IMG/VR virus record: IMGVR_UViG_3300023435_000105
Span: 1 to 22,169 of that record
Length of the DNA stretch: 22,169 nucleotides
Direction: 5' to 3' (one strand)
DNA from: a virus
In this document: positions 4,835 through 16,544 of the stretch, in pieces
How the letters are laid out: every line of letters starts with the position of its first letter
Numbering within the stretch: position 1 is the first letter of the stretch
Notes under the pieces: model-generated
Databases searched by the model: none
Told to the model about the DNA's origin: nothing
Seen by the model: only the letters and a program-made list of their open reading frames with translations
Position numbers and translations under genes: made by a program

Positions 4835-5983
4835 ATGATTGTTGTTATGAAAGGTACTGGTGGTTTAAAACATTATAAATTGAATGCTAAGAAGCATCCT
4901 AGGGAACAGTTGGATAAGATTAAGGCGAGTATTAAGGAGTTTGGTTTTCGTGTGCCTGTTTTGATTGACCAAGATAGTAATATTATTGCTGGTCATGGTA
5001 GGGTTTTGGCTGCGAGGGAGTTAGGATTGAGTGAGGTTCCTTGTATTAAAGTGGGTGATTTAACTCCTGAACAAGTTAGGGCTTTTAGGATTGCTGATAA
5101 TAAGGTTACGGAAAGTGAATGGTTGGATGAGTTTCTTGTAGAAGATTTTAAGTGGTTGGAGGAAAAAGGTTATGATGTATCTCTTACTGGGTTTGATGAT
5201 AAGGAAATTAGTGCTTTAATGGATGAAGGGGGTGTTGGTATTGGTGAGGATGATTTTAATGCTGAGAAGGCTTTAGAATCGGTTAAGTACGTTGTTAAAG
5301 TGGGTGATGTGTTCAAGTTAGGAAGTCATAGGTTAGTGTGTGGTGATAGTACTAATGAAACTGATGTTAAGTTATTAATGGGTGGTGAGAAGGCTGACAT
5401 GGTATTTACAGACCCACCATATAATTTAGGATATGAATACCATAATTACAAAGATAATAAACCAATAGTAGAATATAAAGGGTGGTGTAATAAATGGCTT
5501 AACTTACTTAATTGTAATAAAATAATAATAACAACAGGAAAACAAAACTTACAAATGTGGTATGAACTAATAAAAATAACAGATGTAGCTGTATGGATTT
5601 CTAAGAATAAGATGAGTGGAGGCAAAATAAGTAATTTATCACTTTGGGAACCAATAATATTTATTGGAGAATTTGATAGAAATAATAGAAGTAATGATTT
5701 ATTTGAGTTTAATAAGACATTTCAAAAAGATGTAGGAAAAAATCACACTTGTCCTAAACAATTAACTTTAATAGGAGATATAGTGAAATCTTATTCAAAC
5801 GAAAAAGATAATATTTTAGATGTTTTCGGTGGTAGTGGAACTACTCTTATTGCTTGTGAACAATTAAAGCGTAAGTGTTTTATGATGGAGTTAGACCCTA
5901 AGTATTGTAGTGTTATTCTAGAAAGGTGGGAGAAGTTTACTGGTTTAAAGCATGAGGTAGTGGATGGTGGTGTAGTGGAATGA
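4835..5983 (+). CDS. ParB-like domain / DNA methyltransferase fusion (382 aa)
   Basis: Residues 10-130 are a ParB/Srx-type domain with the signature IIAGHGRVLAAREL (50-63). After a linker comes an amino-methyltransferase with the catalytic DPPY at 193-196 and the S-adenosylmethionine site DVFGGSGTT at 329-337. The order DPPY first and FGGSG later is the beta-class arrangement of N6-adenine/N4-cytosine enzymes. Such ParB-MTase fusions are frequent in phages, where they modify viral DNA against restriction. The stretch between the two motifs, where target recognition is expected, has very different codon use (ATA for Ile). The target sequence cannot be told from the sequence. Confidence 0.9.
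   Translation: MIVVMKGTGGLKHYKLNAKKHPREQLDKIKASIKEFGFRVPVLIDQDSNIIAGHGRVLAARELGLSEVPCIKVGDLTPEQVRAFRIADNKVTESEWLDEFLVEDFKWLEEKGYDVSLTGFDDKEISALMDEGGVGIGEDDFNAEKALESVKYVVKVGDVFKLGSHRLVCGDSTNETDVKLLMGGEKADMVFTDPPYNLGYEYHNYKDNKPIVEYKGWCNKWLNLLNCNKIIITTGKQNLQMWYELIKITDVAVWISKNKMSGGKISNLSLWEPIIFIGEFDRNNRSNDLFEFNKTFQKDVGKNHTCPKQLTLIGDIVKSYSNEKDNILDVFGGSGTTLIACEQLKRKCFMMELDPKYCSVILERWEKFTGLKHEVVDGGVVE
5395..5815 (+). other. ATA-rich segment within the methyltransferase
   Basis: Between motif IV and motif I the gene switches to A-rich codons: about 11 of 14 Ile codons are ATA, whereas the flanking parts of the same gene use only ATT. AAA, ACA, CCA and GAA also become common. The edges are approximate. 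It looks like a swapped-in target-recognition region. Confidence 0.65.
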
Positions 5984-9010: not shown

Positions 9011-10399
9011 ATGTTCACTAAATTAATTCAAGAAAAAAACGTGAAAGACCTAGTAAAAATACATTTTAACATAGACTTAAGACCTTCTCAAATAGAAATA
9101 GTACGAATCATAGCATTTAGTGAACACCGAAAATTATGCGTGAACGCCATGACAAGGTACGGGAAAACCATGAGTTGCGCAATAGGAATATGCCTTTATA
9201 TCTGGTTTAATAATAACAAGAAAATCTTTATTATCGCACCACAAGAAGAACAAGCTGGCATACTACGAAATTTCATAGCAGGATTCATTATTAAAAGCAG
9301 ATGGTTAAGAGAACTAGTAGATATAGAACGTGATTCTAGCATAGAACGATTAAAAAAAGAAGCAAGTCGTAAACGATGGACTTTCAAGAACGGGTGCGAA
9401 CTAAGAACTATATCAGCTCATGGTGAAAGCAATCGGTTAATGGGGATGGGAGGTAACATGATTGTAATTGATGAAGCCGCACTTATAAGCCGTGATTCTT
9501 ACGCTAGAATTACTAGGATGCTCGGAGACGACCCAGAAAATAGTGTGTTAATAGAATTAAGTAATCCTTGGACTATGGATTGTAAGTATTATGATCATTA
9601 CGTTAGTGGCGAATTTCATACTATTCACGTGGGTTATGAGAAGGCAATAGAAGAAAACGCCACTACTTTGGATTTTATTAATAGTGAAAGATTAGAGCAT
9701 GATAAACTGTATTTTACTGTGTTTTATGAGAGTAATTTTCCTACTGAATCTGAGAATCAATTGATTAGTTTTAAGCATATTCAAGTTGCTGAAAATCAAG
9801 CGTGGAATTTAAGTAAAGGTAAAAAGATTATTAGTGTTGACGTGGCTGATTCCGGTAATGATTTCACTGTTATTTATTGGGGTCTTGAATATAACGGTTT
9901 TTATGAGGTTAAGTATGTGTATTATGAGGGTAAAAGTGAGAATATGCGTGTTGCTGAGCGAGTGTATAATTTGTTTTTAGATAAGGGTGCTGACGTGATT
10001 AACGTTGATGGTAATGGTGTGGGCGTTGGCGTGGTGAGTCGTTTAAAGGACTTGTGCAAGGATAAGAAAGTGAGTGTGGTGGGTTGCATGAGTGGGGGTC
10101 GTGCTGGTCTCGAAAATTCTAGTAAGGATGGTAAAAAGCGTATGAGTGAAAAGAAATTGTACGTTAATAAGAAGGCTGAAACTTATTTTAAGTTGAAGCA
10201 CTTGTTTGAATCGTCTAGTGTTCGTATTCCTAAGTTTGATAGGATTAGGAGTGATTTAATTAGTTTGCAGTGGGAGCGTAGTGAAAGCACGAGTAAGGTT
10301 AAGATTTTAAAGCCTGAAAACAAGAAAAGCCCTGATTTTGCGGATGCTTTAATGTTTTTCGTGTGGAAAAGTGATACTCCTAGTTTCTTTTTTGCTTGA
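9011..10399 (+). CDS. terL: Terminase large subunit (462 aa)
   Basis: TerL is the packaging motor ATPase and headful or site nuclease. The N-terminal ATPase domain shows Walker A NAMTRYGKT (45-53), Walker B IVIDE (151-155) with the catalytic Glu, and a coupling-type motif LSNPW (184-188). The C-terminal RNase H-like nuclease domain has acidic residues at Asp278 (ISVDVADSGND), Asp334 (NVDGNG) and Asp442/445 (SPDFADALMF). Length is typical. GAGG five bases upstream sets the start. The first 450 bases use ATA/ATC and A-rich codons, while the nuclease half is G/T-rich like most of the window. Confidence 0.95.
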   Translation: MFTKLIQEKNVKDLVKIHFNIDLRPSQIEIVRIIAFSEHRKLCVNAMTRYGKTMSCAIGICLYIWFNNNKKIFIIAPQEEQAGILRNFIAGFIIKSRWLRELVDIERDSSIERLKKEASRKRWTFKNGCELRTISAHGESNRLMGMGGNMIVIDEAALISRDSYARITRMLGDDPENSVLIELSNPWTMDCKYYDHYVSGEFHTIHVGYEKAIEENATTLDFINSERLEHDKLYFTVFYESNFPTESENQLISFKHIQVAENQAWNLSKGKKIISVDVADSGNDFTVIYWGLEYNGFYEVKYVYYEGKSENMRVAERVYNLFLDKGADVINVDGNGVGVGVVSRLKDLCKDKKVSVVGCMSGGRAGLENSSKDGKKRMSEKKLYVNKKAETYFKLKHLFESSSVRIPKFDRIRSDLISLQWERSESTSKVKILKPENKKSPDFADALMFFVWKSDTPSFFFA

Positions 10400-10404
10400 A
10401 CCAT

Positions 10405-10424
10405 AAACCGAAATGGTTATAAAA
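10405..10424 (+). promoter_or_regulatory. Archaeal BRE/TATA promoter, copy 1
   Basis: The 20 bases AAACCGAAATGGTTATAAAA are identical to 13825-13844. CGAAA resembles the BRE and TTATAAAA (10417-10424) the TATA box; AACC/GGTT form a small inverted repeat around them. Transcription would begin about 25-30 bases on, near 10446, at the edge of the structured RNA. A 12-bp palindrome AATACTAGTATT lies at 10435-10446. Confidence 0.75.
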
Positions 10425-10446
10425 GAGAAAATGTAATACTAGTATT

Positions 10447-10627
10447 AAAGAGGTTTTAGTGAAACTAACAAAAGGGATACTAGATTAACGTTTTGGTATT
10501 GCATTCTAAAGTGATTAGATGCTTTTCTATTACACCCCCCTGTAATCTTTGTTTTAGTGCCTCCTTATTAAACCAAAGGATGTTATCGGTTGTTTCACTG
10601 TTATTTCATTAAAACCTTCTTTTTTTT
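10447..10627 (+). ncRNA. Candidate structured RNA between terL and portal (about 180 nt)
   Basis: There is no credible coding frame here. Bases 10451-10470 pair with 10599-10617 in a 19-bp helix with one G-U and one bulged C. Inside it are hairpins: 10476-10481 with 10495-10500; GCAT-CTAA with TTAG-ATGC (10501-10522, one bulge, five-base loop); ATTACA with TGTAAT around a CCCCCC loop (10529-10546); and TCCTT with AAGGA (10562-10580). An archaeal promoter sits just upstream and a T8 tract just downstream. It could be a stand-alone RNA, for example one working in packaging as the phi29 pRNA does, or a long structured leader of the portal gene. No known RNA family is recognised. Confidence 0.6.
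10620..10627 (+). terminator. Poly-T terminator after the structured RNA
   Basis: T8 tract directly following the 3' arm of the closing helix. Archaeal RNA polymerase terminates at such T-rich tracts. It lies only eight bases before the portal start codon, which has no ribosome site. Confidence 0.55.
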
Positions 10628-10635
10628 CATGTTCA

Positions 10636-13600
10636 ATGATACCTAGTGTTTATGAAATGAGTGACTTGAATAAGGTCATAAACGATAAATTAAGTAAAAG
10701 CGTTAGAGTGTTTAATGCAAGTAATTCTAGTCCAGAGGCTCAAATGCCTTTTCAGCAGGGTTTCATGTGGGTTAGTCCTTTTGGTATTCCAAGACGTATT
10801 AATCCTTTAGAGGTGCGACAGTTTGCTAAGAGTGCGTGGGTTCAAATGGTAGTGAATGCTATATTGAAGCAAGTGCGTAATACCAAGTATGATGTTGTGA
10901 ACGTGGATGATGATGATAATACTGTTTACGAGAAGGAGACTAGTGACGTTTTTGAAGTGTTGGATTGTCCTAACCGTAATAATCAGACGTTCTGGGACGT
11001 GTGGCTTCCGTACTTGCGTGATATTCTAGAATTAGATTCGGGAGTTGTATTTAAGGGTTTCAATGGGGATGGTAAATTGGTTGAATTGTTTGCTCATGAT
11101 GGCAGTAAATTCTTGATTAGTACTGACGAGCATGGTATATTAAATAAGTATTACCAGTACAGTTATGCTTTCCCTACTAGCCGGCCTAAAGAGTTTGAGA
11201 AAAGTCAAATCATTTATGGCATGATGAATTTAAGTACTGAGAATTACCCTTACGGCTTTTGTTTGGATTATGGTAGTTTAATTGAGACTAATGAGGGTTT
11301 GTTAAAGATTGGTGATGTTGTTACTAACAAAAAAGAAGTTTTGATTAAAACATTTAATCAAAAAAAGGAGTGTTTTGAGTACAAACCAATTCTTAATTAT
11401 TTTAGCAGAAAAGTAAGTGAGTACTTATACAGTATAAAATTAAGTAATGGACAAAGAGGTTATGGTATACACTGCACTAATAATCATCCTATTCTCACAC
11501 CTAATGGGTACGTTAACGCAGAAGACCTTAAAACATTCGATAAAATTCTAGTGAAAGGAAAAACTTTAACTAAAGAACAAAAAGAATACATTTATGGTAC
11601 TATGCTTGGAGACGGAAACTTATATTGTAAAAGAAGAAAGGGGTATCCAAGCATTAGACTAGCTCAAAGCATTAAACATGAAGAATATATTGATTGGATG
11701 CAAGAATCATTATATAATCTTGATTTATGGAAGCAAGAAACATACGCGCCAAGCCCACACTATCCAGAACGATTATACAAGCATATTAAACTTAATAGTA
11801 AAGTTGACCCGTGCTTGGATGAAATAAGATGGAATTGTTATCCTAACTATAAAAAGACAGTTACTAAAGAATGGGTTAGTAAATTAACTCCTTTAAGTAT
11901 TAGTGCTTGGATGATGGATGATGGAAGCTGGACTTTTTACAGGCATAATAAAGAATTAATTGAAGGTTTCATTTTTTGTACTGATGATTTTAGTAAAGAA
12001 GAATGTGGTTTGTTAGTAGATAAATTAAAAGGATGGGATATTGAAAGTAAAATCATGTGCCCTCCTAGTACTGGTAAAAATAGGTTATGGGTTAATAAGA
12101 AGAATACTATTAAATTAATGGATTTAACTAAAGATTATATAAATGTTAATGTTGAAACTCATGAGAAAAAGTGGATAGCAAAACCTTTAAAAGTTGTTGA
12201 AAGTGAAACAAGTGTTGAAGTGCCTATTACTAGTATTTCTCGTTTAAAAGTTAAAACTGGCACTGTTTATGATATTGAAGTGAAGGATAACCATAATTTT
12301 ATTACTAATCGTATGATTGTTCATAATAGTCCGTTGCAATCCATTCAGCAAGTAGTAGAGGTTTTAATTCAATCTGACCGGTATAATAAAGAGTTTTTTA
12401 AGAGTAATGGCGTTCCTGCTGGTATAGTAAACGTGAACATGGATGAGCCTGAACTGCAAAGGTTTAAGACTTACTGGCAGAATGAAATTAAAGGTAAGCC
12501 TCATGCTTTAGCGTTCATGAATAGTCCTGACGTTGGATTTAATGATTTGAGTAAGAGTAATCGTGATATGGAATGGTTGGATGGTCAAAAATGGTATTTT
12601 CATTTAGTATTTGGTGCTTATGGTCTTTCACCGCAAGAAGTGGGTTTTTACGAGAATAGTAATCGTAGTACGGGAGAAAGCCAAGAGAGGATTACTGTTA
12701 AGAACGCTATTAAACCGTACCTTAGTCATATTGCAGAAAAAATTAATAACGAGGTTTTACCATTGATTTTATTGGATGATAAGCCTAAGATTAAGTTTAA
12801 ATGGTTTCCGGAAGATGATGTGGCTGAAAGGATTAAGGATGAACAATTGCAGTGGAAGCTTAAAGAAGGAGTTTATAGTATTAATGAAGTGAGGAGTATG
12901 GAAGGAAAAGATAGTGTTGAGGGTGGTGATGAGCATAAGGGTAAAAATAGTGGTAGTATGCAGTTTGAGGGTGATAGTCCTTTCGGTAATCAACCTGTGA
13001 AACCTAATGATACTAAAGGGGAGAAAGATGGTGAAAAGAAAAAAAGTGTGTTAATTAAAGAGGCTGAAATGGTTGAGGAAAGTCGTGAGTATGATGTTTT
13101 CTTAACCAGTATTTTTAAGGGTTGGGAAAAGAAAGTGTTAGGTTACGTGGATTCTAGTTTAACTACTGAATTAAATAAAATGGTTAAAGTGGATAAGAGT
13201 TTGGGGGAGTTCATGAGTGGCTTATTTAATACTGTTAATACGAGCAAGTTTTTTACTGGTTTAAAAAGGGTTATTGGTTTTAAAATGCGTGATGGCTTGG
13301 ATGAGGCAGAGGAAGAACTTGACTTGAATATTAGTGTTGATTGGGAGAATAAAAAGAATGAGGAGACTAGTAGGCAACTTGATGGTTTCACGCTTGATAA
13401 TGGTGAGTACTGGCCTGGACTCAAGGGAGTGAGCAGGGATTTAAGCACTAAAGTATTGGATATTGTAAGGGATAGCATGAAGGAAGGAAGTAGTGTGGTT
13501 GATGTTAAGAAAGAGATTAAGGAAACTTTCAAACAATATACTGGTAGTGAGGCTAGTGAGGGTCGTGCTGACATGATTGCTCGTACTGAGACTACGCGAT

Positions 13601-13824
13601 TGTTTAATAAGTATAAGTTGGAGGGTTATAAGAGTAGTGGTTTGAAGGGTTTTAAAGTTTGGGATAGTTTCATTGATGATAGTACTAGTAGTGAGTGTCG
13701 GGAATTGAATGGTCAAAAGCGTGGTTTAACTGAAGTGTTTAGTTTAAAGGATGGTCGTGAGTTCATGCATCCTCCGTCACACGTTTCGTGCAGGAGTCGT
13801 GTATTGTTCGAGTTGGAAGAATAA
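10636..13824 (+). CDS. Portal protein fused to Mu gpF-like domain, with intein (1062 aa precursor)
   Basis: The portal forms the dodecameric vertex ring through which TerL pumps DNA. Residues 1-208 and 565 to about 760 form the portal part, with the YGF/SPL motif split by an intein (209-564). After splicing the product would be 706 residues. The last about 150 residues match the Mu gpF/SPP1 gp7 minor head family: ARTETTRLFN, then W, a Cys (STSSECRELNG) and HPPSHVSCRSR at the end. No ribosome site precedes ATG 10636, so translation may be leaderless or depend on the upstream RNA. The exteins are G/T-rich and the intein much more A-rich. Confidence 0.92.
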   Translation: MIPSVYEMSDLNKVINDKLSKSVRVFNASNSSPEAQMPFQQGFMWVSPFGIPRRINPLEVRQFAKSAWVQMVVNAILKQVRNTKYDVVNVDDDDNTVYEKETSDVFEVLDCPNRNNQTFWDVWLPYLRDILELDSGVVFKGFNGDGKLVELFAHDGSKFLISTDEHGILNKYYQYSYAFPTSRPKEFEKSQIIYGMMNLSTENYPYGFCLDYGSLIETNEGLLKIGDVVTNKKEVLIKTFNQKKECFEYKPILNYFSRKVSEYLYSIKLSNGQRGYGIHCTNNHPILTPNGYVNAEDLKTFDKILVKGKTLTKEQKEYIYGTMLGDGNLYCKRRKGYPSIRLAQSIKHEEYIDWMQESLYNLDLWKQETYAPSPHYPERLYKHIKLNSKVDPCLDEIRWNCYPNYKKTVTKEWVSKLTPLSISAWMMDDGSWTFYRHNKELIEGFIFCTDDFSKEECGLLVDKLKGWDIESKIMCPPSTGKNRLWVNKKNTIKLMDLTKDYINVNVETHEKKWIAKPLKVVESETSVEVPITSISRLKVKTGTVYDIEVKDNHNFITNRMIVHNSPLQSIQQVVEVLIQSDRYNKEFFKSNGVPAGIVNVNMDEPELQRFKTYWQNEIKGKPHALAFMNSPDVGFNDLSKSNRDMEWLDGQKWYFHLVFGAYGLSPQEVGFYENSNRSTGESQERITVKNAIKPYLSHIAEKINNEVLPLILLDDKPKIKFKWFPEDDVAERIKDEQLQWKLKEGVYSINEVRSMEGKDSVEGGDEHKGKNSGSMQFEGDSPFGNQPVKPNDTKGEKDGEKKKSVLIKEAEMVEESREYDVFLTSIFKGWEKKVLGYVDSSLTTELNKMVKVDKSLGEFMSGLFNTVNTSKFFTGLKRVIGFKMRDGLDEAEEELDLNISVDWENKKNEETSRQLDGFTLDNGEYWPGLKGVSRDLSTKVLDIVRDSMKEGSSVVDVKKEIKETFKQYTGSEASEGRADMIARTETTRLFNKYKLEGYKSSGLKGFKVWDSFIDDSTSSECRELNGQKRGLTEVFSLKDGREFMHPPSHVSCRSRVLFELEE
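11260..12327 (+). mobile_element. Intein with LAGLIDADG homing endonuclease (356 aa)
   Basis: The intein begins with Cys (CLDYGSLIETNEG, block A), has the TxxH block B (CTNNHPIL), two LAGLIDADG-type motifs (YGTMLGDGNL with Asp at 11611-11613, and SAWMMDDGSW with Asp at 11917-11922), block F (VYDIEVKDNHNF) and ends in the canonical MIVHN, followed by Ser as the +1 residue. All splice residues are present, so it should splice itself out. Both endonuclease acidic residues are kept, so homing may be active. It lies between Phe208 and Ser565 of the portal, inside the conserved YGxSPL motif. Confidence 0.95.
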
Positions 13825-13844
13825 AAACCGAAATGGTTATAAAA
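13825..13844 (+). promoter_or_regulatory. Archaeal BRE/TATA promoter, copy 2
   Basis: Identical to 10405-10424 over 20 bases. TTATAAAA at 13837-13844 predicts a transcript start near 13866, only a few bases before the ATG at 13873, which lacks a ribosome site. The protease-capsid mRNA is therefore probably leaderless or nearly so. Confidence 0.75.
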
Positions 13845-13872: not shown

Positions 13873-14832
13873 ATGGTTAAAACTGATAAGATGATTAAGG
13901 CTTGGATGCCGATTAACAAGGATTCTAACGGTAATTTCATTGGTATTTTAAGCGATGATAGTCTTGACCGTGATGATGAGTTCATGACTGAAGAATTACT
14001 TAGGGATTGGAGTCAGACTCCTGAAAACTTGCCTATGTTGGCGAATCACGAGAATAAGATGGAAAAGTTCGTTGGTGGTTGGAAGAACAAGAAATTGATT
14101 AGTAAAGGGAAAAGCACGGCTTTAACTGCTGAACCCTTCTTTTTTAGTAAGGAAGCTAATCCTCTTGCTCAACAAATTCAGAAGCAAGTTGAGGAAGCGT
14201 TAGATAACGGATTAAACGTTGGCATTAGTATAGGTGCTATAGTTCATGAGGAAATAGAAAAAGAGATTGATGGAATTAAACGGGTTGGTTATAGTAAGGC
14301 TGAAATTGTTGAAGCTACTATCGTTCCTATTCAATCTAATCGTAATGCTAGTTTTACTGCTATCGCTAAAAGTTTTGGTTATGGCAAAAATAATAAAAAG
14401 TTAGAAGGTGAAATTATGGGTGATGAATTAAAATATAGTCAAAAAGATTATGATGTTGCTGTTAATAAAGTTAGTAAGGAAGCTGACGAGAAAGTGGCAG
14501 AAGCAGAAGTTAAAGTAACGGAAGCGGAAGCTAAAGTTACTGAAGCAGAAAGTAAAGTTGAAACTGCTGAAACTGCAACAACAGAAGCAAAAACTGAAAG
14601 TGAAGAAGCTAAAGTTGAAGCAGAAAAAGTTTTGGAAGAACAAAAAAAGTCTAATGCTGGTTTAATTAAGGAAGTTGAAAAACTTAAAAAGTTTAGTGAA
14701 GGAAGTAAACTCCCTAATACTGACTTGCCTACTGGTGATTACAGTAGTAAAGGCTTAGAAAACAAGGATGCCCCAATTACTTTCGAGGGTATGCTTAGTA
14801 AACAGTATAAAATTAAAGAAGGTGATGAATGA
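13873..14832 (+). CDS. Prohead protease-scaffold fusion (319 aa)
   Basis: Residues 1-165 resemble the herpes/HK97-type prohead serine protease (S78-like): His59 in LANHENK, Ser119 in NVGISIGA, and the following EIVEATIVPIQSNRNAS block. Residues about 182-285 are an Ala/Glu/Lys/Val-rich coiled coil with repeated AEAKVTEAE units, typical of a scaffold. A GGTGA (14407-14411) four bases before an in-frame ATG at 14416 could yield the scaffold alone. The protein shapes the procapsid and then digests the scaffold. It sits directly upstream of the capsid gene, overlapping it by four bases. Confidence 0.8.
   Translation: MVKTDKMIKAWMPINKDSNGNFIGILSDDSLDRDDEFMTEELLRDWSQTPENLPMLANHENKMEKFVGGWKNKKLISKGKSTALTAEPFFFSKEANPLAQQIQKQVEEALDNGLNVGISIGAIVHEEIEKEIDGIKRVGYSKAEIVEATIVPIQSNRNASFTAIAKSFGYGKNNKKLEGEIMGDELKYSQKDYDVAVNKVSKEADEKVAEAEVKVTEAEAKVTEAESKVETAETATTEAKTESEEAKVEAEKVLEEQKKSNAGLIKEVEKLKKFSEGSKLPNTDLPTGDYSSKGLENKDAPITFEGMLSKQYKIKEGDE
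14416..14832 (+). CDS. Probable internal start: scaffold protein alone (138 aa)
   Basis: In-frame ATG 14416 (residue 182 of the protease fusion) is preceded by GGTGA at four bases and falls exactly between the protease domain and the coiled coil. Nested protease/scaffold gene pairs are well known in tailed phages (lambda C/Nu3). The product would be 138 residues, very acidic and mostly coiled coil. The evidence is the ribosome site and the domain boundary only. Confidence 0.5.
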   Translation: MGDELKYSQKDYDVAVNKVSKEADEKVAEAEVKVTEAEAKVTEAESKVETAETATTEAKTESEEAKVEAEKVLEEQKKSNAGLIKEVEKLKKFSEGSKLPNTDLPTGDYSSKGLENKDAPITFEGMLSKQYKIKEGDE

Positions 14833-15906: not shown

Positions 15907-16224
15907 ATGACTGCAACAAGTATATTAAAGTATTGGGAAGAACTTCCTAATGCTGAATTAAAGCGTGTTTTATTTCAGACTCCTAATACGGCTGATGCGG
16001 CTGACACGTTAGAAATTACCTTAAGCGATTATGGTATTAGTGCTACTGGTTTATTGAGTGTTGAAAGTTGGGTGCATACTGCTAGTGGTAGTGTGATTAC
16101 GACTGAACTTAATACGTGTGCTGTAAGTGCTGGTGTGCTTACTGTAACGATAGCTGCTGGAACTGATAATGATGTTAGAGTGGTTGAGATAGTTGGAAGG
16201 TCAACGCCTGGGGCGTTTGAGTAA
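15907..16224 (+). CDS. Small beta-rich virion protein, tandem copy 1 (105 aa)
   Basis: GAGGTGA (15893-15899) eight bases upstream of ATG 15907 is one of the strongest ribosome sites in the window. The product alternates Thr/Val-rich strands and turns (LEITLSDYGISATGLLSVESWVH-type), like a beta sandwich. It is about 64% identical, with no gaps, to the next gene. Placement right after the capsid gene suggests a capsid decoration or other abundant virion protein. No family recognised. Confidence 0.65.
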   Translation: MTATSILKYWEELPNAELKRVLFQTPNTADAADTLEITLSDYGISATGLLSVESWVHTASGSVITTELNTCAVSAGVLTVTIAAGTDNDVRVVEIVGRSTPGAFE

Positions 16225-16226
16225 AA

Positions 16227-16544
16227 ATGACCGCAACTAGTATTCTTAAGAGTTGGCAAGAAGTACCTAATGCTGAACTTAAAAAGGTAGTTTTTCAAAC
16301 ACCGAATACTGCTAACGAAAACGACACTTTTACTGTAACCCTTGGTTCGTATGGGATTAGTCCTACTGGATTACTTACTATTCGTAGTTGGGTGCATACT
16401 ACAAGCGGTAGTATTATCGTGACTGATATTGCAACGTGTAGCGTGACTGCTGGTGTAGTTACTGTTACAGTTCAATCCGCTAACTCTAATAGTGTTAGAG
16501 TTGTTGAATTAGTTGGCAGATGCGATGCTGGTGTGTTTGAGTAA
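16227..16544 (+). CDS. Small beta-rich virion protein, tandem copy 2 (105 aa)
   Basis: Same length as the upstream copy with 67 of 105 residues identical; MTATSILK, PNAELK, FQTPNTA, SWVHT and VGR blocks are fully kept. It starts two bases after the upstream stop with no clear ribosome site, so translation is probably coupled. The differences are mostly conservative, indicating both copies are under selection. A hetero-oligomer or two capsid sites are possibilities. Confidence 0.65.
   Translation: MTATSILKSWQEVPNAELKKVVFQTPNTANENDTFTVTLGSYGISPTGLLTIRSWVHTTSGSIIVTDIATCSVTAGVVTVTVQSANSNSVRVVELVGRCDAGVFE

Follow-up and report, generated by a model that had tools for sequence, protein, structure and literature searches.

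The structured element between the large terminase gene (terL) and the portal gene of an archaeal tailed virus, whose record has archaeal-type promoters, is, as far as sequence comparison can tell, most likely a built-in control of the amount of portal protein and not a separate packaging RNA. The reading we favour, and consider reasonably probable, is that the element forms the 5' leader of the portal mRNA, acts in cis, and sets and probably switches translation initiation; the role of this leader is probably translational. The window (the whole 22,169-nt stretch analysed, a 22-kb record) carries terL at 9011-10399 on the plus strand, upstream of the element, followed on the same strand by the portal gene at 10636-13824. 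The latter encodes a MuF-like C-terminal domain and an intein and has no Shine-Dalgarno (SD) sequence. The element sits inside the 236-nt gap between the two genes. An initial annotation had proposed either a stand-alone RNA gene reminiscent of a packaging RNA or, as a second possibility, an RNA leader that controls the portal gene in cis. The observation itself is confirmed, and its interpretation was half right (partly supported): it is the second guess that holds up, with promoter and structured leader staying with the portal gene and the distance from stem to AUG nearly fixed.

The promoter of the portal transcript is predicted at 10405-10424 (plus strand), where a BRE/TATA sequence, AAACCGAAATGGTTATAAAA, occurs. 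Its exact 20-nt repeat at 13825-13844 on the same strand precedes the next gene (ATG at 13873, about 36 nt from the TATA box), which supports a real promoter before portal, as the initial annotation had supposed. From the usual TATA-to-start distance, transcription would begin at about 10443-10448, that is, at the foot of the stem. An mRNA from the second promoter copy would be nearly leaderless, whereas the portal mRNA from the first copy would have a leader of about 190 nt. The same promoter with two leader lengths serves as an internal control and singles out portal for its unusual leader. The 8 nt that separate the T8 tract from the portal ATG show no TATA box.

The structured leader (10446-10635, plus strand) is assigned from the fold of the window and from the structured portal leaders found across the family. 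Its closing stem pairs 10447-10470 with 10599-10622 on the plus strand, so the 19-bp helix described earlier (10451-10470 with 10599-10617) is real and extends somewhat further. The region 10447-10627 has a minimum free energy (MFE) of -44.6 kcal/mol, whereas its shuffles average -29.9 (sd 3.4); z is -4.32, and none of 200 shuffles folds as well. The opposite strand folds less well (z -2.6). Most pairs have probabilities of at least 0.87 (10448-10450 with 10619-10621, and 10452-10470 with 10599-10616). The stem has a bulge in each strand, C10465 in the 5' strand and a single base in the 3' strand, its ends are flexible, and GUGAAAC has an alternative partner in GUUUCAC at 10592-10598. The 3' strand stops 13 nt short of the portal ATG, compared with 9-12 nt in relatives, or about 18 nt short of it if the final AAAG/CUUU pairs open. 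The T8 tract noted at the helix end is present at 10620-10627 (plus strand) and is partly absorbed by the stem. As previously stated, there is no credible coding frame, the longest being 39 aa with a TTG start. Of the four internal hairpins described earlier, several are indeed predicted, but the set is ambiguous: MFE and centroid structures disagree, so that "four hairpins" is one among several near-equal folds, and the AUUACA-CCCCCC-UGUAAU hairpin is present in the centroid and absent from the MFE structure. By fold z the element ranks only about eighth in the genome (734 tiled 180-nt windows), and with similar values elsewhere folding alone is insufficient to carry the claim.

Relatives were collected as loci from IMG/VR by TerL and portal searches, with portals mostly up to 55% identical, and 83 distinct portal upstream regions were extracted from them. 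Two portal alignments searched against GTDB genome contigs returned no relatives; among phage records TerL had no match and portal matches were only about 25% identical (e.g., HRTV-28 and HSTV-1). In the portal tree the window is a long branch within a clade of 21 rows. Most of this clade has a TATA box before portal, an SD-less start and a structured leader, the leader length being about 40-110 nt and greater in a few. Many of these leaders contain, in order, AUCACCUCUUUU, a hairpin, UUUUCAUAAUC or similar, and AUGGG, and the foot of the hairpin is often CC/GG or CCC/GGG. Relatives of the same clade with short or weak leaders also occur (L002, L015, L023, L043 and L146). Of 107 other ORFs, 31 follow an SD-like sequence (14 after shuffling), as against 2 of 22 portals, in both of which it lies within the stem.

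The motif AUCACCUCUUUU is essentially restricted to the portal leaders of this clade. Of 19 plus-strand CACCTCY sites in 39 loci (273 kb), 11 fall within 200 nt before portal, a count that is descriptive because the loci include those in which the motif was noticed. A more telling check, a combined TATA and motif scan of the whole collection, returned 10 stretches, namely 7 portal leaders of the clade and 3 chance matches in coding sequence. The seven comprise five known loci (L012, L014, L032, L033 and L034) together with L119 and L124, two newly found records of a single additional virus; its gene had not been recognised as portal before the scan. Two candidates were rejected in the course of these comparisons. 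A GAGGTT...AACCTC stem in L004 had looked like that of the window, but its 5' arm lies between the TATA box and the inferred start and so would not be transcribed. An SD on the other strand (GAGGTGAT then ATG) was dropped since only very short frames lie downstream.

The conservation check proposed in the initial annotation comes out positive at the family level: the hairpin stays near the portal AUG, and the predicted stems keep their pairing while the sequence changes. Since MAFFT lost register in the variable hairpins, shuffles were used in place of a covariance model. The region from motif to AUG outfolds 1000 shuffles in most of the 18 motif-bearing relatives (combined p 3e-16, which is somewhat optimistic because related contigs are not all independent), and in the majority of these 18 leaders the last stem ends 9-12 nt before AUG. 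Over the 75 nt immediately before portal the mean z is -2.06 (n=28), whereas leaders of other genes on the same contigs average -0.13 (n=34; p 1.8e-5). Strong hairpins were also seen before two other genes, in L040 near 3937 (z -5.8) and in L128 near 2561 (z -4.1). In L014 and L034 an identical 18-nt loop, UUUUAGUCACCUCUUUUU, is carried on a stem in which 4 of 7 pairs are changed on both sides; these changes were read straight from the sequences with the loop as anchor, the automatic alignment being gapped there. Across relatives the distance from TATA to motif is 34-87 nt and that from stem to AUG is nearly constant. Moreover, in L002 and L012, where terL and portal are separated by other genes, the leader adjoins portal. 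A geometry that is fixed to the AUG, and to portal rather than to terL, points to translational control.

The window is, on the comparisons made here, one divergent member of a new family of leader RNAs, sharing the layout but not significantly the motif. Its leader is an enlarged version: the last stem is far longer and encloses almost the whole leader, and its T8 tract exceeds the U runs of relatives in length. The locus L026 resembles it, with a stem that begins at about the transcription start and ends 9 nt before AUG. The best motif match in the window is 13 of 18 positions against the L014/L034 loop, which 243 of 2000 shuffles equalled and which is not significant. A search of IMG/VR for the exact DNA pattern of the closing stem found the same virus only, and its only homologous copy (L003/L009) has 10 differences in 4188 nt and 0 in the leader. 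Because the motif is insignificant and the leader of the sole copy is identical, family membership of the window rests on position and layout.

How such a leader could work is suggested by its geometry. The hairpin stem would occupy the place of the SD-antiSD helix on the small ribosomal subunit, and by standing there it would set, and probably switch, initiation at portal. Some trans-acting factor probably recognises the conserved pyrimidine motif, the bulged hairpin or both. The portal is a ring of 12, whereas capsid proteins number in the hundreds, and the likely purpose would be to hold the low-copy portal well below the major capsid protein. A further idea concerns the conserved AUCACCUC, which is identical to the 3' tail of 16S rRNA (its anti-Shine-Dalgarno end) and which L010, L012, L033, L119 and others carry in their portal leaders. 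The leader might then present an anti-SD copy that pairs with SDs in trans or competes for a factor binding the 16S tail; we regard this as quite doubtful. If it were true, portal synthesis would sense the state of the translation machinery. No partner for the motif beyond chance was found in cis within the first 200 nt of portal.

Among the other explanations, transcription attenuation is unlikely, though the most probable of them. Polymerase would often stop at T8, releasing an RNA of about 180 nt, and a regulated fraction would enter portal. A T8 tract directly at a stem also looks like a terminator, many relatives have GGG-UUUU ends 3' of the hairpin, and the upstream motif contains a U5. 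However, the stem is followed by runs of only 2-5 U in most relatives and by none in L128, a terminator scan was negative (a bacterial-type rule covering short loops only), and attenuation does not need a spacing locked to the AUG. A stem at the extreme 5' end that shields the portal transcript from 5'-to-3' decay would fit the window virus and L026, whose stems begin at the inferred transcription start. Such a stability element is very improbable given that in most relatives the stem begins well within the leader, near AUG, and that a sequence motif is conserved too.

Slightly less probable still is a signal acting at the level of DNA, such as a packaging site or an operator, that happens to take the form of an inverted repeat. 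The nearness of terL, the single copy in the record and the symmetry of inverted repeats in DNA would all suit it. Against it, the element goes with portal and not with terL at its near-fixed distance from the AUG, the motif is not regular before other genes, and the stems contain G-U pairs. The plus strand folds better as well: it outfolds the minus strand in 19 of 28 leaders (p 0.035), a slight asymmetry that lends weak support to RNA over DNA. A stand-alone trans-acting RNA, for example a phi29-like packaging RNA (pRNA), was the first guess of the initial annotation and is the least probable of all. A closed fold with both ends paired, a promoter of its own, a T8 end and a place between motor genes all made it attractive; relatives, however, keep only the stem near the AUG and not the fold, size or sequence, and no promoter is seen between the element and portal. 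Rfam, which the initial annotation had suggested searching for a known family, gave none for the window or 15 relatives at the gathering score. At E up to 5 over 10380-10680 there was no pRNA match, and the element gave only two unrelated weak matches. In addition, the TerL residues D277, D333 and D442/D445 are invariant across relatives, a conserved set of nuclease-type acidic residues unlike the phi29 packaging ATPase, whose nuclease domain is described as vestigial (PMC7672431). Nothing supports a phi29-type pRNA, and both features looked for (an Rfam match and an ATPase with a vestigial nuclease) are absent. The likeness to pRNA amounts to a comparable size and a packaging-gene neighbourhood, and the difference is that there is no match in sequence or structure and that here a portal leader in cis stands beside an ordinary nuclease-bearing TerL.

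The closest known counterparts in layout to the proposed portal leader are viral translational operators and, in archaea, control through the 5' UTR; we do not claim membership in either. Like the gene 43 operator of T4/RB69, it is a hairpin in a viral mRNA leader before the start codon, and in that system too the sequences differ among related phages (PMC3014915). The gene 43 operator is bound by the gene product itself, gp43, has its hairpin some 40 nt upstream, and itself overlaps the ribosome binding site (PMC3014915); host domain, gene, spacing and motif all differ in the portal leader, which moreover has no SD. Archaeal L7Ae feedback is similar in that translation is controlled through a structured part of the 5' UTR, but the gene there is a cellular one and the element in its 5' UTR is a k-turn (PMC5539422). 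Inspection of the portal-leader hairpins by eye found no k-turn. In the transcriptome of the haloarchaeal tailed virus HFTV1, portal is among the late genes, and the passages found do not mention a structured portal leader (PMC12542753). Nor did the papers searched describe such a leader before portal in any archaeal tailed virus.

Some observations concern other genes of these viruses. The portal intein of the window carries a LAGLIDADG endonuclease and is inserted at a conserved site, between PYGF and SPLQS. The portal of L004 (L004:4981-7809) has an additional stretch at a position different from that in the window portal, and in L139 a TerL-like gene directly upstream of portal has an end that looks intein-split. 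Inteins thus seem recurrent in the packaging genes of these viruses. Directly 3' of the major capsid gene of the window, 15907-16224 and 16227-16544 encode neighbouring 105-aa paralogues, possibly decoration proteins; a PHROGs search with the first of them (15907-16224) gave no match. At 4835-5983, an N6/N4 DNA methylase is fused to a ParB_N-like domain.

Taken as a portal mRNA leader that probably controls translation, the element would have a significance that extends past the window. A family-wide leader with a near-fixed distance from hairpin to AUG and a motif confined to portal would offer a testable handle on how portal, which each virion needs once, is kept below the major capsid protein. 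The same leader family would likewise be a handle on SD-independent initiation in archaea.
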